From Paracoccus sp. MA (GTDB lineage Bacteria > Pseudomonadota > Alphaproteobacteria > Rhodobacterales > Rhodobacteraceae): DNA of 64,000 nucleotides. This document shows, piece by piece, positions 11,484-64,000 of this stretch. Each line of letters opens with the position of its first letter. Within the stretch, counting starts at the first letter, position 1. Both the position numbers and the translations under genes were made by a program. The notes beneath the pieces were generated by a model. That model ran no database searches, was not told where the DNA came from, and saw only the letters and a list, made by a program, of their open reading frames with translations. The DNA is taken from assembly GCF_020990385.1 (NCBI RefSeq), contig NZ_CP087599.1, positions 186,001 through 250,000 of the forward strand, given 5' to 3'.

Positions 11484-11564
11484 GATTTCATCCCTTGCGG
11501 GGCGGTTGCGCCCCCGAATTCCTGAAGGTCGCGGGCGGCCCGGGGCGGGCCGCCCGGCATGTGC

Positions 11565-27747: not shown

Positions 27748-27749
27748 CC

Positions 27750-28691
27750 ATGGCCGCGCCGCTGCCCGTCAACCTGCTCTGCGGCTATCTGGGCGCGGGC
27801 AAGACCACGCTGCTGAACCGGCTGCTGGACCGGCAGGGCGAGCGCATTCTGGTCATGGTCAACGATTTCGGCGACATCGCGGTCGATGCGGCACTGATCG
27901 CCGGCCGCTCGGCCGACACGATCCAGCTCAGCAACGGCTGCATCTGCTGCTCGATGGGCGGCGGGCTGTTCGACGCCTTCGAGCGGGCGCTGAGCCTTCG
28001 CGACCGGGTGGACCGGCTGGTGATCGAGGCCAGCGGCGTGGCCGAGCCGCAGCGGCTGGCCGCCTTTGCCCTGGCCGAGCCCGAGCTGGACTGCCGGGCG
28101 GTGGTGGCGGTTGTCGATCCGCAAAGCCTGGCCGAGCGGCTGGCCGATCCCCGGATCGGCAGGGTTGCGGAAAGCCAGATCCGCGGCGCCGACGCCGTGT
28201 TCCTGTCGCGCGCCGACATCGCCGGCCGCGCTGCGCTGCGCCGCGCGGCGCGGCTGGTCGCCCGGCTCAACCCGCTGGCCAGCCAGCATCTGGCGGTGGA
28301 CGGCGGCTTCATGCAGGCCTTGGCGACGCCCCATGACGGCCGCAGCCTAGTGGCCCTGGCCCCGGACCGCGACCATGGTCGGCTGTTCGCCAGCCGCATC
28401 ATCGGGATTTCCCCACCCCCGGACCGCGAAGGGCTGGCCGCAATCATCGCGCGGCATGGGCGCGCCATCCACCGCTTGAAGGGCTATGTCCGCCTGCCCG
28501 ACGCGGAGCGCCCGCATCTGCTGCAGCTGGCCGCGGGCGTGCTGGCGCTGGAACCGGCCGAGGCGCCCGAAGGCATGGCCATGAACCGGCTGGTCGCCAT
28601 CGCGCCGGATGCAGAGGCTCTGGCGCGGCTGGCCGCCGAGCTCGAAGGGTTCGGCATCTCCTTCGGCACGAACTCCTTGGCGCGCCGCTGA
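27750..28691 (+). CDS. COG0523 (CobW-like) GTPase no. 1
   Basis: G3E-family GTPase of 313 residues with Walker A GYLGAGKT (12-19), the metal-binding GCICC (63-67), and a CobW C-terminal domain. COG0523 proteins use GTP to place metals, often zinc, cobalt or nickel, into client proteins. It is separated from the zinc-starvation island by more than 20 kb and follows the amidohydrolase by two bases, so its client may be that enzyme. No His-rich loop is seen. Confidence 0.83.
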   Translation: MAAPLPVNLLCGYLGAGKTTLLNRLLDRQGERILVMVNDFGDIAVDAALIAGRSADTIQLSNGCICCSMGGGLFDAFERALSLRDRVDRLVIEASGVAEPQRLAAFALAEPELDCRAVVAVVDPQSLAERLADPRIGRVAESQIRGADAVFLSRADIAGRAALRRAARLVARLNPLASQHLAVDGGFMQALATPHDGRSLVALAPDRDHGRLFASRIIGISPPPDREGLAAIIARHGRAIHRLKGYVRLPDAERPHLLQLAAGVLALEPAEAPEGMAMNRLVAIAPDAEALARLAAELEGFGISFGTNSLARR

Positions 28692-49749: not shown

Positions 49750-50004
49750 CTAGTCAGCCCAGATCCGCGGCGCATCGCGCATCAGCATCCGCGCCTCGAT
49801 CAGGTCGAGGCGTCGGCAGGCGGCCTCGGCATTGCCCGCGGTCTCGGCCATCAGCTTCTGCCACAGGCGCAGCGCCGAAACCGGGCTCCAGGGCAGTGCC
49901 GCCTGCGCCAGCCAACGGCGCAACTCGGGCGGCAGGCGGTCGTATTGCGCGATCGGACAGGGCCGGCGGCGGCGGCGCAGCGAGGTGGCAAGGTTGCCGC
50001 GCAT
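49750..50004 (-). CDS. DUF6525-like small basic protein
   Basis: 84 residues: MRGNLATSLRRRRRPCPIAQ, a YDRLPPELRRWLAQAALPWS core and an acidic end. I recall near-identical short proteins in Rhodobacteraceae as DUF6525; no role is known. Its ATG overlaps the stop of the DUF1826 gene (TGATG), so it is translated with the zinc-starvation genes upstream. Confidence 0.65.
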   Translation of the reverse strand: MRGNLATSLRRRRRPCPIAQYDRLPPELRRWLAQAALPWSPVSALRLWQKLMAETAGNAEAACRRLDLIEARMLMRDAPRIWAD

Positions 50005-50672
50005 CAGTGCAGCCTCCGCGCCTCGGCTGCGGGTTCCGCGGCGGGGTCGAGGGCCAGGAACAGCCGCACCCCGCCGGTTCCGGCGATGGGCGGGGAACGG
50101 TGCAGCAGCGTCGTGACCTCCTCGCCGGGCCACAGCCCGCCGCGCAGGATCGCGGCCTCGCCCGCGCGCATCTCGCCGGCCGGCACGACCTGGCCGCTTT
50201 CGTCCTGCAACCCGAACTGCGTTCCCGGCCCCCGATAGGTGCAAAGCAGCCGCGCGGGCATCTGGTCGACATGGAATTTCCGGCAGGCATCCGTCGTCAC
50301 GGCTTCGAAGCGGAGATGCATCAGCGGATTGCGCATGATCTGCGCCAGCATCAGCGCCAGCGCCCCGATGTCGCTGGCCAGCAGGTCGCGCATCGTCCCG
50401 GCGGGCAGCCCGGACAGGTCGCAGGCGGCATGGATGCAGTTCTCGACCGCGCGGAAATCCACCAGGGCGCGCAGCGCCGGCATCTGGTCAAGCGGGATGC
50501 CCTCGATCCATTCGGCAAAACCGGACGAGAGGCTGCGCCGCCAGATCGCCGCGCCGACCCCCGGCTGGGCAACCTGCTGCAGAACCAGCCCGCTGTCGGA
50601 TTCGAGGATTTCCCGCGCCTCGGCTTGATCGGGGGATGCTCCTTGCGGAGTTGCGGAAACGGTTTCGGTCAT
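50004..50672 (-). CDS. DUF1826-family protein
   Basis: 222 residues. Family-like segments include LDQMPALRALVDFRAVENCI, the histidine site MHLRFEAVTTDACRKFHVDQ and ARLLCTYRGPGTQF, and HRSPPIAGTGGVRLFLALD. The HxD and later His could bind a metal, as in 2OG-like double-stranded beta-helix proteins, but this is my inference. DUF1826 genes commonly sit beside COG0523 genes, as here. The start has GAGGAG 10 bases upstream and lies in the leftward run from the 51993 operator. Confidence 0.7.
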   Translation of the reverse strand: MTETVSATPQGASPDQAEAREILESDSGLVLQQVAQPGVGAAIWRRSLSSGFAEWIEGIPLDQMPALRALVDFRAVENCIHAACDLSGLPAGTMRDLLASDIGALALMLAQIMRNPLMHLRFEAVTTDACRKFHVDQMPARLLCTYRGPGTQFGLQDESGQVVPAGEMRAGEAAILRGGLWPGEEVTTLLHRSPPIAGTGGVRLFLALDPAAEPAAEARRLH

Positions 50673-50753
50673 GCAGCGGCTTCTCCTCTACCTGTATGGT
50701 CCTCTCGTGGACGGGGCAGCCCTGCCCTTCGTCCTTTTCGTCAGCCGCCGCAC

Positions 50754-51977
50754 TCAGGCGACGCGGCGCTGGCCCCATTGCGGAAAGGGATCGGGCAATC
50801 TCGCCCAGGCCTCGGGCGTGAAGTCCCAGGCGTCGACCAGGGCGTCGTCCAGAGCCGTGGTGATGGCCGCAGGGTCCATGCCCGCGCCGATGAACACCAG
50901 TTCCTGACGCCGGTCGCCCCAGGGTTCCTCCCAGTTCTTCGCCACTTCGGCGAGGCTGTCGGGATGGGTCGGCCAGCGTTCGCGCGGCACCGAGGCCCAC
51001 CAGCCGCCCAGCGGCACAACCGAGGAGACGACGCCGGCCAGGCTGAACTCCACCGCCCAGTTCGGGCGGCTTGCGATCCAGAAATGCCCCTTGGCCCGGA
51101 TCACGCCCGGCAACTCGCCGTTGAAGAGGTCGTAGATCTTGCGGGGATGGAACGGCCGCCGCGCCCGGTAGACGAAGGACGAGATGCCGTATTCCTCGGT
51201 CTCGGGCACATGGTCCTGGAACCCGTAAAGCTCTTTCGCCCACATCGGATGCATATGCGCGCGGTCGAAATCGAACAGGCCGGTATCGAAGATCGCATCG
51301 GCCTCGACACGGCCGAAATCCGTCTCGATCAGCTGCGCGTCCGGGTTCAGCGCGCGCACGATCTTGCGCGCCCGGTCCAGCCGCTCGGGTCCCGCATCCG
51401 TCGCCTTGTTCAGCACGATCACATCGGCAAATTCGATCTGGTCGGTCAGCAGGTTGACCAGCGTCCGCTCATCCTCGTCGCCCAGGCTTTCGCCGCGTTC
51501 GGCGATGAAATCGTCGCTGGCGAAGTCGTTGGTCAGGTTGATCGCATCGACGACCGTGACCATCGTGTCCAGCCGCGCCACATCCGACAGGCTGTCGCCG
51601 TTCTCGTCCCGGAAATCGAAGGTCGCGGCGACGGGCAGCGGCTCGGCGATGCCGGTGCCCTCGATCAGCAGGTAGTCGAAGCGGCCCTCCTCGGCCAGCT
51701 TGCGCACCCCTTGCAGCAGGTCGTCGCGCAAGGTGCAGCAGATGCAGCCGTTGGTCATCTCGACCAGCTTTTCCTCGGCCCGGTTCAGCTCGGCCCCCTC
51801 GCGGACCAGATCGGCGTCGATATTCACTTCGGACATGTCGTTGACGATGACCGCGACGCGGCGCCCCTCGCGATTGTTCAGGATATGGTTCAGCAGCGTG
51901 GTCTTTCCGGCGCCCAGAAAGCCCGAAAGGACGGTGACGGGCAGGCGATTGTCGCGGGTTTGCTGGCTGGTCGGCAT
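50754..51977 (-). CDS. COG0523 GTPase no. 2 (ZigA-like)
   Basis: 407-residue G3E GTPase with Walker A GFLGAGKT (19-26), GCICC (77-81) and a long C-terminal domain ([20 protein letters not shown]). This long type resembles ZigA, a zinc metallochaperone induced by zinc limitation in other bacteria. It opens the leftward set COG0523-DUF1826-DUF6525; its ATG is 16 bases from the operator at 51993-52010, so a bound repressor would block transcription here. An ACGAGGA site precedes the ATG. Confidence 0.85.
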
Positions 51978-51992
51978 GGCGTCCTCGTAAAT

Positions 51993-52010
51993 GTAATGTT
52001 ATTACGTTAC
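51993..52010. promoter_or_regulatory. Candidate Zur box, copy 1
   Basis: GTAATGTTATTACGTTAC is an imperfect palindrome (7 of 9 pairs). Its exact reverse complement recurs at 56269-56286. It lies between the leftward COG0523 no. 2 gene and the rightward SnoaL-like/hisI operon, so one site could control both. A partial zur gene is 11.6 kb away. AT-rich GTAAY...RTTAC symmetry fits Fur-superfamily sites. Confidence 0.75.
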
Positions 52011-52087
52011 TCCAATAGCCAGAATCACCGGGACCTGCAATGCCGTTTTCAGGCCGGCCCACCCCGGACAGCGAGGAGAGCAGAGCC

Positions 52088-52540
52088 ATGCTGGAAGATG
52101 TGACGACCAGCCGCGTCCGGGAGGATGCCTTGTTCGAGGCAGCCGCGCGGCCCTATCTGTCGCAGGTGCGCCAGGCCCTGATGCGATGGGCCGAGGTGGT
52201 GTCCCTGGGCCGACTGGAGGATCTGTTGGCGCTTTACGCCACCGATGCCATCCTGGTCCCGACCGTGGCGGACGAGATCGGCGGCCATGCCGAGGAACGC
52301 CGGGCCTATTTCGAAAGCTTCCTCGCCAATCCCAAGCTGCGCTGTCGTATCGACACGCTGCGCAAGCGGATCAGCCACAAGCTGGGCACCGTGGTTGTCG
52401 GCGGGCATTACACCTTCACCTTCGAACGCGACGGCGCGGAACAGACGCTGCCGGCCCGCTACCTGTTCACCTTCGAGGAAATCGACGGGGTCTGGCTGAT
52501 CACCGGGCACCACTCCTCGCGCATGCCATCTTCGTTGTAA
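52088..52540 (+). CDS. SnoaL-like (CaMKII-association-fold) protein
   Basis: 150 residues of the NTF2-like cone fold: LMRWAEVVSLGRLEDLLALY with ATDAILVPTVADEIGGH, LRCRIDTLRKRISHKLGTV and YTFTFERDGAEQTLPARYLF. The motif HHSSRMP near the C terminus could bind a metal. The cone pocket suits a small ligand or dimer contact; no reaction is known. ATG 52088 (GAGGAG upstream) is preferred to 52040. It is the first gene right of the 51993 operator. Confidence 0.68.
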   Translation: MLEDVTTSRVREDALFEAAARPYLSQVRQALMRWAEVVSLGRLEDLLALYATDAILVPTVADEIGGHAEERRAYFESFLANPKLRCRIDTLRKRISHKLGTVVVGGHYTFTFERDGAEQTLPARYLFTFEEIDGVWLITGHHSSRMPSSL

Positions 52541-52558
52541 TTCAAGCACGGAAACACG

Positions 52559-53023
52559 ATGTCGCTCTTTTCCCCCCGCCTCACGGTCGCGCAGGTCGAG
52601 GAAGGCCATGCGCTGGCTCCGAAATTCGATGCCGCAGGGCTGATCCCGGTCATCACCACCGACGCCAGCAGCGGCGAGGTGCTGATGATGGGCGTGATGA
52701 ATGCCGAGGCGCTGACGCGCAGCATCGTAACCGGCGAGGCGCATTACTGGAGCCGTTCGCGGCAATGCCTGTGGCACAAGGGCGCGACCAGCGGATTGAT
52801 CCAGAAGATCGTCGAGATGCGGATCGACGACGATCAGGACGCGATCTGGCTGCGGGTCGAGATCGCCGGGGGCGCAAGCTGCCATGTCGGCTATCGCTCC
52901 TGCTTCTATCGTGCGGTGCCGCTGGGCGGGGACGGTGCGCCACGGCTCGTCTTCACCGAGTCCGAAAAGCTTTTCGATCCGGTTCAGGTCTACGGCGATG
53001 CGCCCAATCCCACGCAGCTCTGA
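52559..53023 (+). CDS. HisI paralog (phosphoribosyl-AMP cyclohydrolase-like) lacking a zinc cysteine
   Basis: 154-residue HisI-type protein, the step-3 cyclohydrolase of histidine synthesis. [16 protein letters not shown] and [10 protein letters not shown] (Cys108, Cys115) are present. The usual metal motif VDCDxDA reads IDDDQDA here (90-95), so the first zinc-ligand cysteine is replaced by aspartate at 91. Zinc-limited bacteria encode HisI2 forms with altered zinc sites. It starts 18 bases after the SnoaL-like gene and its end overlaps the RibD-like start. Confidence 0.85.
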
Positions 53024-53690
53024 TGCGCTCTGGATGGCCCGGGCGCTGGCGCTGGCCCGGCGGATGCGCGGCCATGTCTGGCCCAATCCGCCCGTGGGCT
53101 GCGTGATCGTGAAAGGCGGCACGATCATCGCCGAAGGCGAGACGCAGCCGGGCGGACGGCCCCATGCCGAGCGGGTCGCGCTGAACCGCGCCGGGGCGGC
53201 GGCGCGCGGAGCCACGCTTTATGTCACGTTGGAGCCCTGCTGCCATTGGGGCAGGACCCCGCCCTGCGCCGATGCGATCATTGCTGCCGGGGTGACCCGT
53301 GTCGTTGCCGCGATGCAGGATCCCGATCCCCGCGTAGACGGCGGCGGCTTCGCCCGACTGCGCGCGGCCGGCATCGAGGTGACGGTCGGCGAAGGCGCAG
53401 CTGACGCCGCCGCGATCATGTCCGGCTTCTTGCACCGCACCCGGACCGGAGAGCCGGAACTGATCCTGACCGAACGGGCGGGAGCGGTCCCCGAGGGCGC
53501 CGACGCCCTGCTGGAGACGCGGAGCGGACGGCACGGGCTTCGCCTGCAAGGTTCCCGCCGCATGCCGGGCATGGCTTGCGATCTCAGCCCGGATGGCCTT
53601 CTGCGCCGCCTCGGCGGCCTCGGCCTGACTTCGGTTGCCCTGTGGCGCGACGACCCGCTATCCGCCGCGCTTTCTTCAACGCCTGCATGA
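52998..53690 (+). CDS. RibD-like deaminase, short form
   Basis: 230 residues. The N-terminal deaminase domain of RibD (riboflavin synthesis) is intact: [34 protein letters not shown] (His56, Glu58) and [14 protein letters not shown] (Cys81, Cys90), so the zinc site is retained. The usual reductase domain (RibD is about 370 residues) is missing or reduced to about 80 residues. ATG 52998 overlaps hisI by 26 bases; ATG 53034 would remove the SDALW segment. It may be a housekeeping-like copy or a deaminase with another substrate. Confidence 0.78.
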
Positions 53691-53698
53691 GGATTTGG

Positions 53699-53917
53699 AT
53701 GAACTACATTCCGCAAACCTATGACGAATGGGAACATTGCATCACCGTCAAATGCGGCATCCCGCTGACCCCGGCCTATGTGGCCGGGCGCATCGCCGCG
53801 CTTGAGGACGGGCATGACTTCCACACCCAGAAATTCATCGACCGCTGGGGTCAGGCCCATCACGCGAGGACGCTTGAATGGTTCCGCAAGGCCGCAGGCA
53901 AGCTCGCCGCCGGTTGA
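53699..53917 (+). CDS. Small conserved protein of the zinc island, unknown
   Basis: 72 residues: MNYIPQTYDEWEHCITVKCG, then PLTPAYVAGRIAALED and HDFHTQKFIDRWGQAHHART. Two cysteines (14, 19) and several histidines give a possible metal site. I recall similar short proteins next to COG0523 genes in Rhodobacteraceae. ATG 53687 (MRIWMNY) overlaps the RibD stop and could be the true start; 53699 is used as the conservative choice. Confidence 0.65.
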   Translation: MNYIPQTYDEWEHCITVKCGIPLTPAYVAGRIAALEDGHDFHTQKFIDRWGQAHHARTLEWFRKAAGKLAAG

Positions 53918-53941
53918 CCCGCATTCATTCAGGAAGACACC

Positions 53942-55153
53942 ATGCCGCAGATTCCGGTCACGATTCTCAACGGCTTTCTCGGCGCCGGAAAGACCACGCT
54001 CCTGCAAAGCCTCCTGGTGCAGGCCCGGGGCATGCCGGGCGTGCGGCTTGGCGTCATCGTCAACGAGATGAGCGCGCTTGATGTCGATGGCGCGATCCTC
54101 GACACCAGCGAGGTGATCTCGCGCCGCGACCCGCGCTTTGCCGCCATTCCGGCCGGCAGCATCAGCGACGCGCAGGGGCTGAAGCAGTTCGCCGGCGCCG
54201 TGGACAAAGTGACCGGCGCAGGCGCCACGCATATCCTGATCGAAACCTCGGGCAGCACCCATCCCTGGCCGCTTCTGGAAGCGATCCGCGTGCATCCCGC
54301 CCTGCGGCTGCACGGTTTCCTGTCGGTGGCGGACACGGTGACGCTGGCGCAGGACCACGACCTGGGCCGCGCCATCCTGCCCGCCGCCTCGCACCATCTG
54401 GCCGAGGGTCGGCGCGGGATCGAGAACCTGCTGGCCGAGCAGATCATGTTCGCCAGCCGCATCCTGCTGAGCAAGATGGACCGGGTATCCGGCGAGACGC
54501 TGCGCACTGTCGCGCAGGCGATCCATCCGCTCAACCCCTTCGCCGACATCATGGGGATGCAATGGGGCAATGTCCGGCTGGCCGATGTGCTGGCCCTGCC
54601 GCCCTATGACCATGCGCGCGTCGCCACCCTGGGCGCCGAGCTGACCGACTGGGACCGCAGCCGCGGCACCGCCTCGATGTCCGGGGCCGAAGGCTACCGG
54701 CTCGGCAGCATCGTGATCGCGGACCCCCGCCCCTTTCACCCGCAAAGGCTGTGGAAGGTCTATAACCATTCCCTCGGCACCGGCATCCATCGCAGCAAGG
54801 GCTTCTTCTGGCTGCCTTCGCGCGACCGGCTGCAACTGCTGTGGAACCAGACCGCCGGCAGCATCGGGCTGGAGATCGTCAATTACTGGAAAGTCGCGGC
54901 GCTGGAGGACGACAGCCTGAACCTGCTGCCCGAGGAACGACAAGAGATGCGCCGGCGCCTTGCCGGCATGTCGCCCGAGTTCGGCGACCGGCGTTGCCGG
55001 CTGACCGTGATCGGCGACCGCGACGGGCTGGCGGACTTCGCCGATGCGGTCAGGGGCTGCTTCTGCACCCCTGCAGAGGTCGCGGCGTGGAGGGCGGGCG
55101 AAGCCTTCGACGATCCCTGGCCGGCAAGCACGGCGCGACTGTCGCAGCGATAG
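53942..55153 (+). CDS. COG0523 GTPase no. 3, without the CxCC motif
   Basis: 403-residue G3E-family protein with a normal Walker A (GFLGAGKT, 11-18) and VIVNEMSALDVDGA. Where other members have GCICC it reads AGSISDAQG (71-79), with no cysteine. The C-terminal domain is long (SKGFFWLPSRDRLQLLWNQT) with a C-terminal CFCTPAE. It may bind metal by other residues, or act as a GTP-dependent partner without its own metal site. AGGAAG precedes the ATG. It ends the rightward operon from the 51993 operator. Confidence 0.85.
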   Translation: MPQIPVTILNGFLGAGKTTLLQSLLVQARGMPGVRLGVIVNEMSALDVDGAILDTSEVISRRDPRFAAIPAGSISDAQGLKQFAGAVDKVTGAGATHILIETSGSTHPWPLLEAIRVHPALRLHGFLSVADTVTLAQDHDLGRAILPAASHHLAEGRRGIENLLAEQIMFASRILLSKMDRVSGETLRTVAQAIHPLNPFADIMGMQWGNVRLADVLALPPYDHARVATLGAELTDWDRSRGTASMSGAEGYRLGSIVIADPRPFHPQRLWKVYNHSLGTGIHRSKGFFWLPSRDRLQLLWNQTAGSIGLEIVNYWKVAALEDDSLNLLPEERQEMRRRLAGMSPEFGDRRCRLTVIGDRDGLADFADAVRGCFCTPAEVAAWRAGEAFDDPWPASTARLSQR

Positions 55154-55178
55154 ACCGCCCGGCCCGGCATTGCGCCTT

Positions 55179-56192
55179 TCACCCCGGCCGCGACGTCCCG
55201 AAGCGGTCGCGATAGTCGCGCGGCGTCAGCGAAAACCGGCGCAGGAAGGCCTTGCGCAACTGCTCGTCCGAGGTGAAGCCGCAGCGGAAGGCAATGGCCT
55301 TCAGCGGCAGGTCGCTGTCCAGAAGCAGCGCCTTGGCCCGTTCGCAGCGCGCGCCTTCCAGATAGCTGGCCGGAGTCGTGCCCAGTTCGGCGGCGAACAG
55401 ACGGGTGAAGTTGCGCGGGCTCATCCCGGCGCGGGCGGCCATGTCGGGGATGCGCAAAGGCTGGTGCAGGTTGGCCAGCAGCCAGGACTGGATGTCCCGC
55501 ATCCCCGGCGGGCCGCGCATCTGGCTGGTCAGGGCGGCGCTGAACTGCGACTGCCCTCCCGGCCGCTTGAGATAGATCACCAGGTCGCGCGCCACGGCCA
55601 GCGCCAGGTCGCGGCCGAAATCCTGCTCGACGAAGGCCAGCGCCAGATCGATCGCCGCCGTCACCCCGGCCGAGGTCCACAGGCTGCCGTCCTGCACGAA
55701 GATCGCGTCGGCATCCACGCGGACCCCGGGAAAGCGGCGCTGCAACAGCTCGGCCACGCTCCAATGCGTCGCCGCGCGGCGTCCGTCCAGAACCCCCGCC
55801 GCGGCCAGGAAGAACGACCCCGAGCAGAGCGCCGCGAAGCGTTCCGCCTCGAAGGCCCGCCGGCGGCACCACTCCACCAGCCCGGCTTCCCGCGCCAGCG
55901 CCGCCTGGATGTCCAGCGCACCGGCGACCATGACCGTGGCCAGCGGGCCGGTCTCGGGCAATCCGGTTTCGGCGGCAAGCGTGATCGGCGTATCCGAGGG
56001 GATGGCGCCGGGCCGGGGCGCGGTCAGCACGATGTCGTAGCGGCGCGGATCGCCCCGCTCGGCCAGATGGCGGTTGGCATAGCTGAGCACATTGACCGGC
56101 CCGACCGCCTCCATCGACTTGAAGCCGGGATAGATGACGATATGCACCCGGTGGCTGTCCCTGCCGGGCGCGGCTGGCCCCTGCCCTGTCAT
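55179..56192 (-). CDS. GlxA-type AraC regulator with DJ-1/PfpI-like domain
   Basis: 337 residues. An N-terminal class I amidotransferase-like domain (HIVIYPGFKSMEAVGPVNVL, RFAALCSGSFFLAAAGVL) precedes a C-terminal AraC helix-turn-helix (RIPDMAARAGMSPRNFTRLF, LPLKAIAFRCGFTSDEQLRK). The cysteine in LCSGSF sits at the nucleophile elbow. Such regulators often control catabolic genes. It diverges from the alcohol dehydrogenase and shares the 56269 operator region. ATG 56192 has AGGAAG six bases upstream; 56219 would add 9 residues. Confidence 0.8.
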   Translation of the reverse strand: MTGQGPAAPGRDSHRVHIVIYPGFKSMEAVGPVNVLSYANRHLAERGDPRRYDIVLTAPRPGAIPSDTPITLAAETGLPETGPLATVMVAGALDIQAALAREAGLVEWCRRRAFEAERFAALCSGSFFLAAAGVLDGRRAATHWSVAELLQRRFPGVRVDADAIFVQDGSLWTSAGVTAAIDLALAFVEQDFGRDLALAVARDLVIYLKRPGGQSQFSAALTSQMRGPPGMRDIQSWLLANLHQPLRIPDMAARAGMSPRNFTRLFAAELGTTPASYLEGARCERAKALLLDSDLPLKAIAFRCGFTSDEQLRKAFLRRFSLTPRDYRDRFGTSRPG

Positions 56193-56268
56193 TCGCTTCC
56201 TGTCCCTTGGCCTGAACATCGGGAACCCTGTCCGAAATCGACCGGCCGGACAGGTTCCTGCAGCATCA

Positions 56269-56286
56269 GTAACGTAATAACATTAC
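56269..56286. promoter_or_regulatory. Candidate Zur box, copy 2
   Basis: GTAACGTAATAACATTAC is the exact reverse complement of the 51993-52010 site; with the preceding A the identity is 19 bases. It lies between the GlxA-like regulator (start 56192) and the alcohol dehydrogenase (start 56320), 34 bases from the latter. Two identical 18-mers 4.3 kb apart in divergent promoters are very unlikely to be chance, so one regulator, most likely Zur, should bind both. Confidence 0.78.
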
Positions 56287-56319
56287 GTGATTGGATGCAA
56301 GCCGAGGAGACTGTCCGAG

Positions 56320-57483
56320 ATGAAAACCCGCGCCGCCATCGCCTGGGAACCGAACCGCCCGCTGGAGATCGAGGAAATCGACCTTGAAGGCCCCAGGAAC
56401 GGCGAGGTCCTGGTCCGTATCGTCACCACCAGCCTGTGCCATACCGACATGTTCACCCTGTCGGGCAAGGACCCTGAGGGGTTGTTCCCCGCCATCCTCG
56501 GCCATGAGGGCGTCGGGATCGTCGAAGAGATCGGCCGCGGCGTCACCTCGGTCAAGCCGGGCGATCATGTCATCCCGCTCTACATCCCCGAGGATCCGGA
56601 CTGCCCCGATATCAAATCGGGCAAGACCAATCTGTGCCAGACAATCCGCGAAACGCAGGGCCGCGGCGTCATGCCCGACGGCACTTCACGTTTCTCCTAC
56701 AAGGGCAAGATGATCCATCACTACATGGGCACCAGCACCTTCAGCGAATACACGGTGCTGCCCGAGATCTCGGTGGCGAAGATCTCGACCGAGGCGCCGC
56801 TGGCCAAGGCCAGCGTCATGGGCTGCGCCATTCCGACCGGCATGGGTGCGGTCAGGAACACCGCCAAGGTGGAACCCGGCGCGACGGTGGCGGTCTTCGG
56901 CCTGGGCGCGGTCGGCATGGCGGTGATCCAGGGGGCGAAGATGGTCGGCGCCGGCCGGATCATCGGCATCGACACCAACCCGAACAAGTTCCCGCTGGCC
57001 CGCGGCCTTGGCGCGACCGAGTGCATCAATCCCGCGGATTTCCAGCAGCCTATCCAGCAGCTCATCATCGACATGACCGGCGGCGGTGTAGATTACTCCT
57101 TCGAGTGCATCGGCAACGTCAATGTCATGCGCTCGGCGCTGGAATGCTGCCACAAGGGCTGGGGCGAATGCACGGTGATCGGCGTCGCCGGCGCGGGCGA
57201 AGAGATCGCCACCCGCCCCTTCCAGCTGGTCACCGGCCGGGTCTGGCGCGGCTCGGCCTTTGGCGGCGTGCGCGGGCGCAGCCAGCTGCCCGGCATGGTG
57301 GACGAATGGCTGCGGGGCGATTTCGACGTCGATCCCTATATCACCCACAACATGACGCATGAGCAGATCAATACCGCCTTCGACCTGCTGCATGCGGGCG
57401 AGTCGATCCGCTCGGTCATCCATTACCAGCCGCAGGAAACGATGCGGGTGAACAACCTGCCCGGCAAGATCGTCCCGGCGTAA
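56320..57483 (+). CDS. Class III alcohol dehydrogenase paralog without structural zinc site
   Basis: 387-residue S-(hydroxymethyl)glutathione dehydrogenase-like enzyme. The catalytic zinc ligands are kept: SLCHTD (Cys40), LGHEGVG (His62), and MGCAIPTG (Cys169); the NAD motif is GLGAVGMAV. The structural-zinc lobe, usually PxCxxCxxCxxxxTNLC, reads [18 protein letters not shown] (90-107): two of four cysteines are gone (Asp92, Ile98). It may work with one zinc per subunit, sparing zinc, with formaldehyde-glutathione or another alcohol as substrate. ATG 56320 has a GAGGAG site and follows the operator by 33 bases. Confidence 0.88.
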
Positions 57484-57498
57484 GCCGATGAAGCAATT

Positions 57499-57523
57499 CC
57501 CCGGGCATCTTGCATGTCCGGGG
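57499..57523. terminator. Hairpin after the alcohol dehydrogenase
   Basis: CCCCGG and CCGGGG pair, with an inner CAT/ATG extension across CTTGC, 15 bases after the stop. No U-tract follows. It sits between convergent genes (stops 57483 and 57582), which fits a terminator. Confidence 0.5.
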
Positions 57524-57581
57524 GTCGCCTGCGCCCGAAGCCGGCCGGCGGGACTATCATCGCGCGATGTCCTGCCCGGAG

Positions 57582-57755
57582 CTAGGGGGACGGAACCATG
57601 CCGTTCAGATAAAGCGACAGGGCATGCGCCGCCGCCCGGGCCTCGACATCCAGGGTCGCGCGTTCCGCGGCTTCATCGACCAGGTGGGCCTTGGGGCCGC
57701 TTTCTGCGCATCCTCCAAGGAGCGCGAGAACAAGGACGGTGCTGGCAATTCGCAT
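57582..57755 (-). CDS. Small lipoprotein, unknown
   Basis: 57 residues: a signal segment MRIASTVLVLALLGGC with a good lipobox (LGGC, cysteine 16), then ESGPKAHLVDEAAERATLD and a C-terminal helix ending YLNGMVPSP. An AAGAGAG site precedes the ATG. It is about 100 bases after the thioredoxin-reductase-like gene at the end of the zur operon. I do not recognise it. Confidence 0.58.
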   Translation of the reverse strand: MRIASTVLVLALLGGCAESGPKAHLVDEAAERATLDVEARAAAHALSLYLNGMVPSP

Positions 57756-57856
57756 TGGCGCTCTCTTGTCTGGTTGAATGTTTGCTGCCGCTACCGCAGC
57801 TGTCGCCGGATACCGAAGCGGCGCCGTCCCGTAGGAGCAACTTCGCCGCTTATCCG

Positions 57857-58738
57857 TCAGAACACCAGCGAACGATGCATCTGCGCCCCGGCCCAAGCCC
57901 CGTCCCCCACGGCAAGCGAGACCGAATGCGGCACCCGCGCCGCATCGCCGCAGGCGAAGGCGCCGGGCACCGTGGTCTCCTTCGCCGCATCGGTGCGGAT
58001 CTGGGTGCCGAAGGGGGTCTCCTCCAGTTCGCAGCCCAGGCTTTCGGCCAGCGGCGAGGCCGGGACATTGCGGCCGGCGGTGAACAGCCCGGCAAAACCC
58101 AGGCGGCGCCCGTCGGCCAGCACCACCTCGGCCTCGCCGTCCAGCCGCACGACCGGCGCCGTCTCGACCCCGACGCCCCGGGCGGCAAGGTCGGCCAGGG
58201 CCGCCGCATCCGGCGTCACCGCGCCATTGGTGAACAGCGTGACCTCGCCCCATTCCGGCAGAAGCTGCGCCTGGTGCAGCGCCATCGGCCCGCTGGCCAG
58301 CAAGCCGATCCGGCCGCGGTCCAGTTCGTAGCCGTGGCAATAGGGGCAATGGAACACGGTCCTGCCCCACCGCTCGGCCAGCCCCGGAATGTCCGGCAGA
58401 ATGTCGCGGACGCCGACGGCGAAGAGCAGGCGCCTGCCGTCATGGCCGGAGCCGTCCTCCAGGGTAACGCGGAACTCCTCTCTTTGCCCGGCGGCATCGA
58501 CGGCTGTCGCGTCGATCCAGGTCAGGCTCGGATAGCGCAGAAGCTGCTCGCGCGCGGTCGCCCAGATCACCGCCGGGTCGACGCCGTCCTGTCCCAGGAA
58601 GCCATGCGAATGGCTGGCGAAGCGATTGCGCCGCCGGCCCGCATCGACGATCAGGACCGAGCGTCGCGCCCGCAGAAGCTGCAGCGCCGCCGCCATCCCG
58701 GCGTAGCTGCCGCCAATGACGATGACGTCCTGTTTCAT
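57857..58738 (-). CDS. Thioredoxin-reductase-like flavoprotein
   Basis: 293 residues with FAD motif VIVIGGSYAGMAAALQLL, an active-site pair CPYC in FHCPYCHGYELD, and the FAD-binding C-terminal FACGDAARVPHSVSLAVGDG. Such short TrxR-like enzymes reduce a thiol protein or small disulfide with NAD(P)H. Its start overlaps the stop of COG0523 no. 4 (ATGA), so it is coupled to it. It may keep cysteine-rich metal-site proteins reduced; this is an inference. Confidence 0.8.
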   Translation of the reverse strand: MKQDVIVIGGSYAGMAAALQLLRARRSVLIVDAGRRRNRFASHSHGFLGQDGVDPAVIWATAREQLLRYPSLTWIDATAVDAAGQREEFRVTLEDGSGHDGRRLLFAVGVRDILPDIPGLAERWGRTVFHCPYCHGYELDRGRIGLLASGPMALHQAQLLPEWGEVTLFTNGAVTPDAAALADLAARGVGVETAPVVRLDGEAEVVLADGRRLGFAGLFTAGRNVPASPLAESLGCELEETPFGTQIRTDAAKETTVPGAFACGDAARVPHSVSLAVGDGAWAGAQMHRSLVF

Positions 58739-59898
58739 GACTCTCTCCTTGTCCTGCCGGGCCCCGGCCCCGGGCGGCCCATCAACCGAAGGGCCTGCCG
58801 CCCTGCTTGAATGCCTGGAACGCCATGGCGAGAAACAGGCTGAGGCTTGCCCGAAAGCGCCTCGAATTCGGCCCGGATGGCGCCCTCGTCGAGATTGGTG
58901 CCGATGATCACCAGCCGGCTTGCGGCTTGTCCCTGCGGCCAGCCCTCCAGCCGCATGATCGGATAGAGCCGATGCTGCACGGCATGGATCAGCGCCGGTG
59001 CAGAGGGATCGTCCTGAAGCGCGACCAATCCCTTGATCCGCAAGAGCCCGTTGCCCCGCGTCGTGGTCAGCCGCATGAGGAACTGCCGCAGCGCGCGTTC
59101 ATCGACCGGATCGTCGCGGACAAGCGGGATGGCGACGACGTTCCCATGCCGGTTCAGGTCGTGGAAATGGCCGCCATGGCCGTGACCATGGTCATGGCTC
59201 GCTTCCGCCGCCAGCCAGGCCTCGACCCCCTCGCCCTTGCCGAAAGCGGAATAGCTGGCAGGTTCGAGCAGCGCGGCCGGTCGGAACGAGGGATCGGTTC
59301 CGTCATGAATCCTCAGGCCCGGGTTGAGTCGCTTCAGCTTTTCCGGCCAATCGCCCGCCGGTGCCACGTCGGTCCTGGTCAGAACGACATGATCGGCGAA
59401 GGCGATCTGGCGAAGGCTTTCGGGATGGCTGTCCAGTGCCGCGCCGATGCCCTGGACATCGACGACCGTGATCACGCCCGACAACCGAAACGCCCGCGCC
59501 ACCGCGTGATCGCGCAGCGACATGGCCGCCACCCCGCCGGGGATCAGGCTGTTGATGATCGGCGCCGGATCGGCCAGCCCCGGCGTCTCGACGATGACGC
59601 GCGAAAATGGCGGCAGGCTGCCATCGCGGCGGCCCACGAGCAGCTCATCCAGGGATGAGCGCAGGTCGCTGCCGACGGTGCAGCAGATGCAGCCGGTGGT
59701 GGTGACCACCGGCCGCTCCCGCCCCTCGCGGACCAGATCGTGATCGACGGATACCAGGCCGAACTCGTTAATGATCAGGGCCGTATCGTGGAAGGCGGGA
59801 TTCTCGAGGATGCGGTTCAGCAGCGTGGTCTTGCCCGCACCCAGAAAGCCGGTGAGGAGGAAGACGGGAAGCTGTTCGATGGTGATGCCGGGTTTCAT
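58735..59898 (-). CDS. COG0523 GTPase no. 4, with His-rich loop
   Basis: 387-residue G3E GTPase with Walker A GFLGAGKT (17-24), GCICC (69-73) and a His-rich stretch HDHGHGHGGHFHD (235-247) that could bind several zinc ions. The C-terminal domain is typical (GLLRIKGLVALQDDPSAPAL, HRLYPIMRLEGWP). Such loops are known in COG0523 metal chaperones and in zinc/nickel storage. ATG 59898 overlaps the upstream 50-residue ORF stop; GAGGAT precedes it. Confidence 0.86.
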   Translation of the reverse strand: MKPGITIEQLPVFLLTGFLGAGKTTLLNRILENPAFHDTALIINEFGLVSVDHDLVREGRERPVVTTTGCICCTVGSDLRSSLDELLVGRRDGSLPPFSRVIVETPGLADPAPIINSLIPGGVAAMSLRDHAVARAFRLSGVITVVDVQGIGAALDSHPESLRQIAFADHVVLTRTDVAPAGDWPEKLKRLNPGLRIHDGTDPSFRPAALLEPASYSAFGKGEGVEAWLAAEASHDHGHGHGGHFHDLNRHGNVVAIPLVRDDPVDERALRQFLMRLTTTRGNGLLRIKGLVALQDDPSAPALIHAVQHRLYPIMRLEGWPQGQAASRLVIIGTNLDEGAIRAEFEALSGKPQPVSRHGVPGIQAGRQALRLMGRPGPGPGRTRRES

Positions 59899-60047
59899 GC
59901 GGATATCCTCGCCTCGATCTTCGGTAAATCCTCGGCCGGATGCGGCAGCCGTGGCCGAACCAGGGCGGCAGCCAGCTGATAGGCCCGCACAGGGCCGATC
60001 ATGCCGCCCGACACGCCGCGCGGCTGGATGCTGCGGCGCGCCCTCAT
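59895..60047 (-). CDS. 50-residue ORF coupled between cysS and COG0523 no. 4
   Basis: Starts with ATG 60047 overlapping the cysS stop (ATGA) and ends with TGA overlapping the COG0523 start (ATGA). It reads [15 protein letters not shown], then [19 protein letters not shown]. The IGPVRAYQL core vaguely recalls the N terminus of YidD, but the YidD cysteines are absent. Two exact 4-base overlaps in a gene-dense operon suggest it is translated. Function unknown. Confidence 0.55.
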
Positions 60048-61402
60048 CCGCCTTGCCCCACAAGCGGGGGATCTTCGACCGCGATGCCAAGCCCCAACAG
60101 CTCGTCGCGGATACGGTCGGCCGTGGCGAAATCGCGGCCGGCACGGGCGGCGGCGCGTTCGTCCCGCAGCGCATCGATGCGGGCCACGTCTTTCTGGTCC
60201 GTCTGGCACGCGGCCAGTTCCGCCTGCCAGTCGCGCTCGGTCCTTTGCAGCAGGCCAAGCTCCGCCCCGGCCTCGACCAGGGCGGCGACATAGCGCGGCC
60301 TGAGTTCGGGATCGACCGAGCGCGCCGTGGTGGCCAGCACGAAAAGCTCGGCCAGCGCCGCCGGCGTGTTCAGATCGTCGTCCAGCGCGGCGCGGAAACG
60401 GGCCAGCAGCGGGCTGTCCCGGCACAGCCGCAGATCGCCCGGCCCGTCGCCGATGGCGACGTAAAGCCGGGAAAGCGTCCTGACCGCCTGCGGCAGCGTT
60501 TGTGCCGTCCAGCCCAGTGGCTGCCGGTAATGCGCCGAGAGCAGCGCCAGCCGCACCGCCTCGCCCGGCGCCTGCCCCAACAGGTCGCGCAGCAAGAGCA
60601 CATTGCCGAGCGACTTCGACATCTTCCGCCCCTCGACCGTGACGAAGCCGTTATGGATCCAGAAGCGCGCGCGGGTGCCTTGCGCGATCTCGTTCTCATG
60701 GTGCGGGAATTGCAGGTCCACGCCCCCGCCGTGGATGTCGATGGGATTGCCCAGGTGATGCTCGATCATCGCCGAGCATTCGATATGCCAGCCGGGGCGC
60801 CCCCGACCCCAGGGGCTGTCCCAGCCGGGCTGGCTGGCGTCCGAGGGCTTCCACAGCACGAAATCCGCCGGATCGCGCTTGAAGGGCGCGACCTCGACCC
60901 GCGCGCCGGCGATCATTTCGTCGCGCTTGCGCCGCGAGAGCATGCCGTAATCGGCAAAGGAGGGCACATGATAGAGCACATGGCCCTCGGCCTCATAGGC
61001 GTGCCCCGCCGCCAGCAGGCGCCGGATCAGGTCGATGATCTGCGGAATATGATCCGTCACCTTTGGCTCGATGCCGGGCGGCCGCACCCCCAGCGCCGCC
61101 ATGTCGGCGTGATAGGCGGCGGTGAAGCGTTCGGTGATCGCTGCGATCGGAACACCCGCGGCCGCCGCCGCCGCGTTGATCTTGTCGTCCACGTCGGTCA
61201 GGTTGCGGGCATAGATCACCCGCCCGAAATGCCGTTCCAGCACCCGCACCAGCACGTCGAAGACCACGGCGGGGCGGGCATTGCCGATATGGGCGTAGTC
61301 ATAAACCGTCGGGCCGCATACATACATGCGGACCTCGCGTGGATTGCGGGGGACGAAGGGCTGTTTCTCGCCGCCCAGGCTGTTGGTGAGATATAGGGTC
61401 AT
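60044..61402 (-). CDS. cysS: Cysteinyl-tRNA synthetase paralog
   Basis: 452-residue class I synthetase charging cysteine onto tRNA. Zinc ligands appear intact: [10 protein letters not shown] (Cys29), the WHIECSAM cysteine and the [13 protein letters not shown]is/Glu. Motifs AHIGNARP (HIGH-like) and [10 protein letters not shown] (KMSKS) are present. It is probably a second copy, since a zinc-island locus is an unusual place for the essential gene. Zinc-regulated CysS paralogs occur in other bacteria. ATG 61402 (MTLYLTN) gives the standard N terminus. Confidence 0.85.
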
Positions 61403-61451
61403 CTGTCGTCTCTGTGTGGAAAATGCGGGATCGGTTGCGCGGGGACGGGCC

Positions 61452-62594
61452 TCAACAGAGGCATTTGTCGGCATCGCAACAGGTCGGATCGTCCAGATAC
61501 ATGTTGTTGGCGCGATAGAGTTCCAGCGCCGAGGTGTCAGCCCCGACCCGTCCTGCAATGGCGCGGGCGACCACAGCGAAACGCTGGCGAAACTTGTAGA
61601 TGAAGCAGAAAAGATGGCCGTTATGCGACACCTCGGGCCCGACCAGGAACAGGCCCGGCAATTCGGTGGATTCGTCCTGCGGCGTCAGCAGCGGCAGGCC
61701 GGTTTCGTCATAGTCGAACCAGCCCGAGACCGGCGCCGTGCCGCTGGCAAAACCCGTGGCCAGGATCGGCGCATGGGACGAAAGCCAGCTGCGCCCGTCG
61801 CCCGCAAGGATGCGGATGCCGCCCGGCTCCTCTTCCAGCGCGACGACCTCGGCGCCGTCGATCAGCGTGATGGCGCCGCCCTTCATCGCCACGTCCAGCC
61901 GCTGGCGGGTAAAGGGCGACAGGGCGCGGCTGGGGTCCTTGTCGCGGTCCTGCCAGGGCGCCGCCCCGCGTTCCAGCACCGTCACCCGCTTGCCCGCGCG
62001 GGCAAGTCCAAGCGCCGCGTCGATGCCGCTTTCATAGCCGCCGATGACGAAGACCTCGTCGCCCGGCACATCCTGCCAGCGGCCGACCGCGGCGTAGTGG
62101 CGGGCAAGTTCCGCACCGATCAGCCCCCCATCCGAAGGGGTGCCGAACTGGCCGCAGGCCCAGATCACGAAATCCGCGCCGATCTCGCCGCGATCCGTGC
62201 GCAGGACGAGCCCTTCGCCATGCGGCTCCAGCCCCAGCACCTCGATGCCGCATGCGACGTTCAGCCCGAAGGCCAGCGCCGCCTGCTCCAGATATTGGGC
62301 GTAGCGTCCGCCGTCGGGATGCTCGCGCTTCAGCGACCAGCCGGGCGAGCTGTCATAGCTGATCGCGTTCAGGTCGGTCAGGCCGAAGACATTGACGGGA
62401 AAGGACGGCGTCAGCAGCCGCGTGCCCGAGGGCCAGCGCAGGAAGCTTTGCCCGATCCGGCCGCGTTCCAGCACCCAGACATCGGGGATCGCCAGGTCGC
62501 GCAGCACCCGCGCCACGCCCAGACCCGCCGGCCCCGCCCCGACGATGGCCACGGTGACGTGATCGGGGATGCGACGGTCTTCGGACAGGCTCAT
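61452..62594 (-). CDS. Flavoprotein monooxygenase-like protein with cysteine-rich tail
   Basis: 380 residues, two dinucleotide folds: [20 protein letters not shown] (FAD) and [20 protein letters not shown] (NADP). It ends with CCDADKCLC, four cysteines that could form a metal or thiol site. The layout recalls flavin monooxygenases or NAD(P)H-dependent oxidoreductases; the substrate is unknown. Its start overlaps the COG0523 no. 5 stop (ATG 62594, stop 62591), so the two are coupled. Confidence 0.75.
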
Positions 62595-63661
62595 GGCGTC
62601 ACCTCGGCGGAAAGATAGCCGACGGGCAGCACATGCTCGGACACGGCAACGGAGTTCAGGGCGGAGAAGAGATCCCGCAGCTCGGGATCGGTGAAGTCGC
62701 GCAGGATCAGCACCAGCTTCGAGCGGCGATCCTCGCCCTGCCAGTCGGTCAGCAGGACCGGCGGATGAAAGATGTGCTGGACGCCGTGGACCACGAAAGG
62801 ATGCGGCACGCCCTGCAGGTGGATCAACCCCTTGAAGCGCAGCAGATCGGCGCCGCGCTGCGCCATCAGCATCTCCATCCAGAGATCGAAGGCCGTGGCC
62901 GAGATCGGCTCGTCGATCACCCAGGAGACCGAGCGGATCGCGTCCAGATGCCTGAGGGCGTCGAGATCGGCCAGCTTCGGAACCGGAACGGCCTCCTGCC
63001 GCAGCCAGCCCCGCGCCTCGGCCGACTTCATCGTCGGATCGAAGTGCCCCAGCCCGGTCAGCCGTCGGGGGTCGATCCGGCCATGCAGCGCGATCTGGAC
63101 CGGCGCAGCGGCATTCAGCGCCGCGATTTCGCGGCGGGCGCCGGGCTCGTCGGCCTCGGGCAGGTCGGTCTTGGTCAGCAGGACAAGATCGGCCAGGGCA
63201 ACCTGGCGCCTTGCCTCCTCGTGCCGGCGCAGGGTGTCCGGCCCCGTCGCGGCATCGACCGTCGCCACGACGCCATCGGTCACGAAACGCTCGGACAGGT
63301 CCATGCTGGTCAGCAGCGTGTGCAGGATCGGCGCCGGATCGGCCAGGCCGGTGGTCTCGATCATCACCCGGTCGAAGTCCAGCTCGCCCGCCTCGCGCCG
63401 TTCCGCCAACTCGACCAGCGTGTCCAGCAGATCGCCCCGCAAGGCGCAGCACATGCAGCCCGACTGCAGCAAGACCAGAGTCTCGGTCGTCGAGACGACC
63501 AGTTCGTGGTCCAGCCCGATCTCGCCGAATTCGTTGATGATGATGGCCGTGCGGCCGAAATCGCGATGGCGCAGCAGCCCGTTCAGCACCGTGGTCTTGC
63601 CGCTGCCAAGAAAGCCGGTCAGCAGCGTGACGGGAAGAGGCGTCGGGCAAGGGTCCGTCAT
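62591..63661 (-). CDS. COG0523 GTPase no. 5
   Basis: 356-residue G3E GTPase with Walker A GFLGSGKT (16-23) and the metal motif GCMCC (68-72). C-terminal features include LLRFKGLIHLQGVPHPFVVH and HIFHPP. Its start overlaps the zur stop (ATGA), so it is expressed with the zinc regulator, favouring a zinc client. The longer frame to 63727 lies inside zur and is not real. Confidence 0.86.
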   Translation of the reverse strand: MTDPCPTPLPVTLLTGFLGSGKTTVLNGLLRHRDFGRTAIIINEFGEIGLDHELVVSTTETLVLLQSGCMCCALRGDLLDTLVELAERREAGELDFDRVMIETTGLADPAPILHTLLTSMDLSERFVTDGVVATVDAATGPDTLRRHEEARRQVALADLVLLTKTDLPEADEPGARREIAALNAAAPVQIALHGRIDPRRLTGLGHFDPTMKSAEARGWLRQEAVPVPKLADLDALRHLDAIRSVSWVIDEPISATAFDLWMEMLMAQRGADLLRFKGLIHLQGVPHPFVVHGVQHIFHPPVLLTDWQGEDRRSKLVLILRDFTDPELRDLFSALNSVAVSEHVLPVGYLSAEVTP

Positions 63662-64000
63662 GTCCGCCCCGCCCTTATCCGGCCCTGACGCTTGGGGACG
63701 GCGGCGGCATCCCGGCAATCGGCGCAAGTTCCCTGCAATTCGATGACGCGACGTCCGACCTGGAAGCCCAGCGAAGCCGCGCGTTCGGAAAGGACCTCGG
63801 CAAGGCCGGCCAGTTCCAGTTCCACCGTGGCGCCGCAGCTGTTGCAGAGAAAGAAAAGACCGGCATAGCGATCCTGTGGATGCGCCGAGGGGACAAAGGC
63901 GTTGCGCGTCTCGATCCGGCTGATGAACCCCTGCTCCAGCAGAAAGTTGAGCGCCCGATAGGCGGTCGGCGGGGCCAGGGGCCGGCCCAGCCTGTGGCCC
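63658..64000 (-). CDS. zur: Fur-family zinc-uptake regulator, C-terminal part
   Basis: The reverse strand reads PTAYRALNFLLEQGFI at the end of the winged helix, then SRIETRNAF, LFFLCNSCGATVELE and VIELQGTCADCRDA. The two CxxC pairs (LCNSC and TCADC) form the structural zinc site of Fur-family Zur. About 113 C-terminal residues are visible; the N terminus is beyond 64000. The stop overlaps COG0523 no. 5. Zur should bind the operators at 51993 and 56269 when zinc is sufficient. Confidence 0.88.
   Translation of the reverse strand, partial: GHRLGRPLAPPTAYRALNFLLEQGFISRIETRNAFVPSAHPQDRYAGLFFLCNSCGATVELELAGLAEVLSERAASLGFQVGRRVIELQGTCADCRDAAAVPKRQGRIRAGRT

Follow-up and report, generated by a model that had tools for sequence, protein, structure and literature searches.

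In Paracoccus sp. MA, whose 4.47-Mb genome is assembled in three contigs, we have analyzed a window of 64,000 nucleotides of contig NZ_CP087599.1 (C3, 671,525 bp; window C3:186001–250000) that carries a cluster of genes for COG0523 GTPases, second copies of zinc enzymes and a second Zur-type regulator. The cluster, referred to here as the island, spans 20.2 kb (C3:235750–255985); its first base is position 49750 of the window and its last genes, aztABCD, lie beyond the window end. The nearest named plasmid records, from Paracoccus ferrooxidans and P. versutus, cover 41% and 40% of a 14.3-kb query, respectively, at about 91% identity. The genes named in a preliminary description of this DNA are all present: four COG0523 genes, a HisI, a RibD-type deaminase, a CysS, a class III alcohol dehydrogenase (ADH), a DUF1826 protein and a Fur-family gene. 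Its view of the zinc enzymes as paralogs is borne out by second copies of HisI, CysS, RibD and AdhC found elsewhere in the genome. A GlxA/FtrA-type AraC regulator was absent from its list and two flavoproteins were unnamed there. An island confined to 14 kb, as given there, can be ruled out: past zur2, in about 6 kb beyond the window, it continues with a Zur box, a NicO-type gene, a DUF1007 gene, another Zur box and aztABCD. Strand and spacing predict seven transcription units for the whole island, five of which lie within the window, where four operons had been claimed (Table 1).

The units are connected by a putative Zur box, the 18-bp sequence GTAACGTAATAACATTAC, of which the window contains two mismatch-free copies; with up to 3 mismatches allowed, 100 shuffles yielded none. 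In the whole genome, five sites match the degenerate box with at most 2 mismatches, four of them in the island and one between zur1 and a znuA-like gene (contig C2), and the reversed control pattern of the degenerate box has no site at all. The four island boxes serve all seven predicted units. The first 15 bases of the box are identical to the 15-bp motif listed for pden1338 in Table 7 of a study of the P. denitrificans Zur regulon (PMC5387054). According to the sections of that study consulted, pden1338–1340 rose 13.2-, 10.6- and 8.6-fold and the azt genes 6.3- to 24.5-fold without added zinc, and purified Zur shifted motif-bearing promoters in electrophoretic mobility shift assays, with strong binding of zur/znuA DNA only in the presence of zinc. 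The affinity order printed there is zur/znuA, aztA, pden1341 and norC; pden1338 is not among them. On a contig of P. denitrificans DSM 413 (L045/L060), the box is flanked by ZigA–DUF1826–DUF6525 on one side and by SnoaL–hisI2–RibD half–72-aa protein–COG0523 no. 2 on the other, and a second box past DUF6525 corresponds to the pden1341 motif. Because of this arrangement and the matching second box, we infer that pden1338–1340 are the orthologs of the zigA–DUF1826–DUF6525 unit. In that locus (L045), the right-hand end of the island is cut short and AdhC2 has no match.

Conservation of the boxes was followed in five other Paracoccus loci (L001, L002, L045, L046 and L047, with L002 and L047 both from P. 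versutus). The zigA box is present in all five, the L046 copy being one mismatch from the consensus. The adhC2 box is found, with one mismatch each, in all four loci that have adhC2 there, and the aztA box in three, those whose azt genes lay in the examined stretch; a further locus, L052, comes from the same genome as L046 and has boxes at azt and zur2. These boxes, the inclusion of aztABCD in the block and the published RNA-seq for the zigA operon and the azt genes (PMC5387054, as far as its printed data extend) give good support to the single zinc-limitation programme predicted for the island in the preliminary description. A fifth COG0523 gene with CxCC lies at 27717–28691 (+), near dipeptide ABC transporter genes (19.5–25 kb). 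It was rejected as an island member, since the only boxes in the window are the two of the island and the gene is about 21 kb upstream, with no Zur box near.

Table 1. Features of the island. Positions refer to the window; units are predicted and their genes are listed in order of transcription.
Feature	Position	Strand	Predicted unit	Match or remark
DUF6525 small protein, 84 aa	49750..50004	-	1 (zigA–DUF1826–DUF6525)	PF20135, 104.1 bits; last gene of zigA unit
DUF1826 protein	50004..50672	-	1	PF08856, 171.4 bits
COG0523 no. 1, ZigA type, GCICC	50754..51977	-	1	NCBIfam ZigA NF038288, 601.5 bits
Zur box 1	51993..52010			exact GTAACGTAATAACATTAC; between zigA and hisI2 unit
SnoaL/NTF2-like protein	52088..52540	+	2 (SnoaL–hisI2–RibD half–72-aa protein–no. 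2)	PF08332, PF13474
HisI2	52559..53023	+	2	NCBIfam PRK00051, 150 bits (cut-off 126)
RibD deaminase half	53034..53690	+	2	TIGR00326 profile positions 1–141 of 343; start codon predicted
72-aa protein with CxxxxC	53699..53917	+	2	no Pfam match
COG0523 no. 2, SISD where CxCC expected	53942..55153	+	2	Pfam cobW, CobW_C
GlxA/FtrA-type AraC regulator	55179..56219	-	3 (alone)	DJ-1_PfpI, HTH_18; start codon uncertain
Zur box 2	56269..56286			exact GTAACGTAATAACATTAC; between glxA and adhC2
AdhC2, class III ADH	56320..57483	+	4 (alone)	TIGR02818, 646.5 bits (cut-off 543.95)
Thioredoxin-reductase (TrxR)-like flavoprotein	57857..58738	-	5 (zur2–no. 4–flavoprotein–cysS2–no. 3–TrxR-like)	PF07992, 76.9 bits; probably last in zur2 unit
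COG0523 no. 3, CxCC, His-rich stretch	58735..59898	-	5	PF02492, PF07683
CysS2	60044..61402	-	5	TIGR00435, 439 bits (cut-off 340)
Flavoprotein with C-terminal Cys tail	61452..62594	-	5	PF13738, 285.3 bits
COG0523 no. 4, GCMCC	62591..63661	-	5	PF02492, PF07683
zur2, Fur family	63658..64000	-	5	PF01475; 5' part outside window, whole gene L008:159-665
Zur box 3	past window end			GTAACGTAATAACATTAC; 25 bp ahead of zur2
DUF1007, NicO-type genes	past window end		6 (DUF1007–NicO)	
Zur box 4	past window end			variant GTAATGTAATAACATCAC; between DUF1007 and aztA
aztABCD	past window end		7 (aztABCD)	

The CxCC motif is the reason why COG0523 proteins are regarded as metal chaperones. Nos. 1, 3 and 4 of the island contain the P-loop GTPase domain, the CobW_C domain and CxCC. 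No. 2 has the same two domains with an intact P-loop, and reads GSISD instead of the GCxCC of its neighbors. With the ZigA equivalog model NF038288 (cut-off 600 bits), no. 1 scores just over the cut-off and nos. 2, 3 and 4 fall under it (176, 85.1 and 119.1 bits). Relatives of no. 2 were collected from genome contigs with a seven-sequence alignment; 146 were confirmed and 80 of them kept. CxCC is found in none of 80 family members from several phyla (the window protein and 79 in-frame relatives; L063, whose match is out of frame, was left out of the count). At the equivalent site, Rhodobacterales and enterobacteria mostly have SISS or SISG, and Planctomycetes and Bacteroidetes mostly VLSS. The extraction was controlled on the other COG0523 proteins of these loci, 23 of 24 of which have GCxCC, the exception being L129_376_1494. 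In a tree of 60 proteins, 31 CxCC-less members of the 80 make up one side of a branch with 100/100 support and a stem of 2.33; this tree counts the L129 exception under the "CxCC" label, and the program cautions that long branches can come together. The P-loop residues are invariant among 54 aligned members, and His107, Cys352 and Cys373 are nearly so.

Haas et al. (2009; PMC2770081, available text) report CXCC in all COG0523 members, which were collected by means of this motif, and mention Rv0106 as a COG0523-like protein that is without the full CXCC and also without the GTPase motifs. The group is likewise characterized by CxCC in the portions seen of PMC10642216 and PMC9164220, while the available text of PMC12208494 words the motif as "typically" present in one place and as "like all other studied" in another. 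Our literature search found no report of a CxCC-less COG0523 protein; it did not cover the COG0523 review of Edmonds et al. (2021), which may list such clusters. Compared with the nucleotide-dependent zinc chaperones ZigA and ZNG1, no. 1 is alike in passing the ZigA cut-off and nos. 3 and 4 in having CxCC, whereas no. 2 keeps the GTPase motifs without CxCC.

Genes near no. 2 were counted within 6 kb in the 80 loci from clustered predicted open reading frames. The counts are lower bounds and the loci are not independent, since they include close relatives, six of them of Pantoea/Enterobacter/Erwinia type. Another COG0523 gene is present in at least 23 loci, and the 24 proteins concerned are placed in the tree on the ZigA side (17) or with nos. 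3 and 4 or CobW (7). Other neighbors include DksA-like proteins (at least 18 of 80), the Cys-tailed flavoprotein (at least 10), FolE2 (at least 7), Fur-type proteins (at least 6), class III ADH-like proteins (at least 5, of which one, in L081, is just 34% identical to AdhC2) and HisI (at least 4); the FolE2, DksA, Fur and flavoprotein groups were named by Pfam on one representative each. The DksA-like representative reads GFCRDTGEPIG...AELSIEAKT at what is presumably the C4 finger, with three of the four Cys gone, and the Pfam finger model still matches. Of the 80 loci, 17 have a relative of the 72-aa protein; all 15 relatives whose match covers the motif have CxxxxC, and five loci (L062, L091, L092, L122 and L126) have both the 72-aa protein and the flavoprotein. 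The Cys-tailed flavoprotein of the island is related over nearly its whole length (residues 12–380, 238.4 bits) to PDB 3d1c, a flavin-containing putative monooxygenase with a similar C-terminal Cys tail. All 12 aligned sequences, the island protein included, from Rhodobacterales, enterobacteria, Planctomycetes and Bacteroidetes, carry this tail (CC-x(3,4)-C-x(1,2)-C). For no. 2, the likeliest role is in our view that of a partner without metal, either for the CxCC proteins or for the CxxxxC protein and the flavoprotein with the Cys tail.

The zinc enzymes of the island differ from their housekeeping copies to unequal degrees. AdhC2 is 60% identical to AdhC1 and retains the catalytic zinc ligands C, H and C. 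At the four positions that we take, by reading against AdhC1, to be those of the structural zinc, it has D, C, I and C, so that two of the four Cys are lost. The same pattern with catalytic ligands kept occurs in all 12 Paracoccus genomes that have AdhC2 (of 125, E 1e-190) and in Tritonibacter, Sagittula and P. seriniphilus. An Azospirillum relative (69% identity), which lies beside fghA, keeps all four structural Cys. The glxA gene is divergent from adhC2, also in four of the five Paracoccus loci used for the box comparison. As AdhC2 scores above the class III ADH cut-off, and as GlxA-type regulators often govern metabolite responses, glxA–adhC2 could be regarded as a formaldehyde-response unit that merely adjoins the zinc island. 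We consider this very unlikely. An exact Zur box separates the two genes, and a box-like site within 3 mismatches is located upstream of adhC2 in 9 of 11 relatives (a scan without shuffle control). Moreover, the same pair has znu/zur genes as neighbors in Sagittula, and in P. seriniphilus it adjoins genes for DUF1826 and COG0523 proteins.

HisI2, aligned to 1zps, has Asp in place of the first of the three zinc Cys, which we take to be Cys93, Cys109 and Cys116, the Asp being at Cys93. This Asp is found in all 11 proteins examined, namely the island protein, two from Paracoccus and eight others. By source, seven of the 11 come from plasmid records, of which 750 matched HisI2, and four from the window and from Paracoccus and Pseudogemmobacter loci. 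On the plasmids opened, hisI2 lies beside various of thrS, zigA, zur, folE and DUF1826, and in Phaeobacter also ribD. Three small proteins of zinc loci that bear the annotation phosphoribosyl-AMP cyclohydrolase, one in P. seriniphilus (L050 3672–4151) and the second of that name in Phaeobacter (L054 2279–2752) and in Thioclava (L055 5453–5926), gave no HisI alignment and were dropped from the count; they are probably misnamed. The RibD copy consists of the deaminase (zinc) half with what we take to be the zinc motif, and the reductase half is absent; the housekeeping RibD (L033) has 336 residues. CysS2 is 56% identical to CysS1 and, aligned to 1li5, retains all the zinc ligands, presumably Cys28, Cys209, His234 and Glu238. 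The idea that all the paralogs are zinc-independent was therefore rejected.

Intact CysS2 ligands and an intact RibD-half motif would also be expected if the paralogs and the extra COG0523 copies simply raised the number of protein molecules, the ligand losses being neutral drift; a dosage explanation of this kind is offered for paralogs with intact sites in the available text of Haas et al. (PMC2770081). It is nevertheless unlikely here, given that the D, C, I, C pattern of AdhC2 recurs in every Paracoccus genome with the gene and in Tritonibacter and Sagittula, and the Asp of HisI2 in 11 of 11. A third-position bias of codon changes also indicates purifying selection on hisI2 (adhC2 was outside this comparison).

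The regulator in the island is not the only Zur of the strain. The chromosomal zur1 lies alongside znu-type genes, and zur2 of the island is a second Zur. In the ZnuA-like protein of the chromosome (L009 3488–4534, minus strand), His-Asp and His-Asn alternate over a long stretch. The preliminary description listed a zur in the island: a Fur-family gene is indeed there, but it encodes a non-canonical Zur without the sensory site. Zur2 scores 111.5 bits with the NCBIfam Zur model, below the cut-off of 167, and matches the Fur domain (PF01475). It aligns over 140 residues with E. coli Zur, in which site A consists of four Cys, and site B of His77, Cys88, His96 and Glu111 (PMC4219657, available text). 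Zur2 retains the Cys4 site A, whereas the site-B residues read Ser, Ser, Tyr and Glu. At E 1e-25, 52 of 125 Paracoccus genomes have a match to Zur2, with Zur2-type proteins at E 1.8e-109 to 3.7e-43 and the next match at 1.1e-30; a Zur2-type protein is thus present in seven genomes, this one included. All seven keep site A and have lost both site-B His, six have lost the Cys, and five keep the Glu. In contrast, Zur1-type proteins (that of this strain and of 13 other loci), which are 38–46% identical to Zur2, have His, Cys, His and Glu in 13 of 14 cases, with Gln for the second His in the remaining one. Five of the six other zur2 genes adjoin a no. 4-like gene (45% identity in one, 70–89% in four) and one adjoins cysS2. 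Of the 125 Paracoccus genomes, 7 have Zur2 and 12 have AdhC2, and five have both (hypergeometric 6e-5, kinship ignored). By eye, and in a less sure alignment, a similar loss is seen in Acetobacter, Gluconobacter and Gemmobacter in the Fur-type genes next to hisI2, but not in Bosea. Our literature search for a Zur paralog with site A kept and site B lost found none.

With site A but no intact site B, Zur2 most probably lacks the zinc sensing of Zur1. The repressor of the island is more likely the chromosomal Zur1 than Zur2, because the island zur gene is not a canonical Zur. The role of Zur2 could be that of an anti-repressor, which would be produced as zinc declines, form Zur1–Zur2 dimers through the Cys4 site and strip Zur1 off the boxes, in a positive feedback that keeps the island switched on. 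It would fit that zur2 lies behind its own Zur box, that site A is kept and site B lost in all seven proteins, and that Zur2 naturally carries C88S, a substitution that abolishes DNA binding and repression by E. coli Zur and leaves its dimers intact (PMC4219657, available text). However, mixed dimers are not assured, as the identity between Zur1 and Zur2 is just 38–46%, and Zur2 could instead bind the box metal-free or sense something else through other residues. We regard the anti-repressor as conceivable, though doubtful. In a more elaborate proposal, zinc-starved bacteria would employ copies without metal sites as functional components: no. 2, from its cross-phylum family, would be the part of a two-part zinc-delivery machine that binds no metal, the metal being carried by the 72-aa protein and the flavoprotein, and Zur2 would at the same time be an anti-repressor of Zur1. 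This seems to us improbable.

From the observed gene content, boxes, residue changes and their conservation, we consider it very probable that the island is a Zur-repressed block for zinc sparing and zinc allocation. With zinc present, chromosomal Zur1 would occupy the four boxes and keep the seven units silent in this strain; when zinc is short, all seven would open together. AztABCD would then bring in zinc, and the CxCC-containing GTPases no. 1 (ZigA), no. 3 and no. 4 would allocate the scarce metal to presumed client proteins. The second copies of the zinc enzymes would take over, with a lower demand for zinc in the case of AdhC2 (without the structural site), HisI2 (with changed ligands) and the RibD zinc half on its own, and with CysS2 unchanged. 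No. 2, a GTPase stripped of the metal motif, may serve as the metal-free partner suggested above.

Several observations count against this interpretation in whole or in part. Tags for the hisI2–no. 2 unit, expected just below pden1338, are absent from the 77 printed rows of the 147 regulated genes of P. denitrificans (PMC5387054), which is either evidence against regulation of those genes or silent on it. A box within 2 mismatches is found at just three of the six zur2 relatives, and a box-like site within 3 mismatches upstream of adhC2 was not found in 2 of 11 relatives. Zinc sparing does not explain CysS2 and the RibD half, as both keep their zinc motifs. The HisI beside no. 2 in Martelella (L086), the one aligned of four HisI neighbors in no. 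2 loci, keeps the zinc Cys. Two no. 2 loci of other genera, L038 and L039, contain no island gene, save a weak 26% match to an ABC-ATPase, and no Zur box within 2 mismatches. The no. 2 copies of P. versutus have a broken N-terminus, that of P. ferrooxidans has an altered P-loop (GKAT), and in one relative (L087) the match is interrupted by a stop. The P. versutus and P. ferrooxidans copies, and the rarity of no. 2 (found in 4 of 125 genomes in the genus Paracoccus and in 4 of 295 in the bacterial family, this one included), would agree with no. 2 and Zur2 being functionless, decaying leftovers of duplication. Such decay is extremely unlikely in view of the invariant P-loop residues and the 100/100 branch that extends across several phyla; in addition, codon changes concentrate at third positions in zur2 (for example 0.216, 0.160, 0.500 against L141), hisI2 and no. 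2, which argues against decay of the window copies.

DUF6525 has the same position behind DUF1826 in five Paracoccus loci. The azt genes beyond the window are 91–96% identical to those of P. versutus; with the respective models, AztA scores 248.7 bits (cut-off 220) and AztD 397.9, just below its cut-off of 400. In P. ferrooxidans and P. versutus (L001 and L002, at about 11285–11846, minus strand), a diverged second DUF1007-like stretch lies in pieces beside DUF6525, perhaps a broken gene.

The zinc programme is of a known kind. The beta- and gammaproteobacterial Zur clusters of Haas et al. (PMC2770081) likewise combine COG0523, zur, HisI and CysRS paralogs, DUF1826, zinc transporters and Zur boxes. 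As far as the available text goes, they differ from the island in having up to three Zur-regulated COG0523 genes in some genomes, compared with four here, one of them without CxCC, which fits the earlier remark that this locus has more copies than most. They also differ in that HisI sites are conserved there, whereas HisI2 lacks one zinc Cys, and in that the class III ADH and the RibD half of the island are outside the nine families considered. A review (PMC6103462) lists Zur-regulated alcohol dehydrogenases (adhA and adhP) and zinc-free ADH paralogs, so an ADH behind a Zur box is not new as such; its available part names no class III ADH with the catalytic site kept and the structural zinc site lost. 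The P. denitrificans regulon (PMC5387054) shares the box, the ZigA–DUF1826–DUF6525 operon, aztABCD and separate zur–znu genes. In contrast, azt, zigA, adhC2, cysS2 and a second zur are here gathered in one block on a 0.67-Mb contig, and the available text of that study deals neither with the hisI2–no. 2 unit nor with a second zur. A literature search, which did not cover the 2021 COG0523 review, found no report of such a set of conserved parts stripped of metal sites.

A natural, conserved family with the GTPase motifs, often found in zinc-starvation loci and devoid of CxCC, uncouples GTPase and metal site, which makes the role of the motif directly testable. Zur2 offers a similar test for zinc sensing, with natural site-B losses of the kind that abolish repression in E. 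coli Zur. AdhC2 and HisI2 suggest that a zinc enzyme may lose its ligands set by set, rather than being replaced whole.

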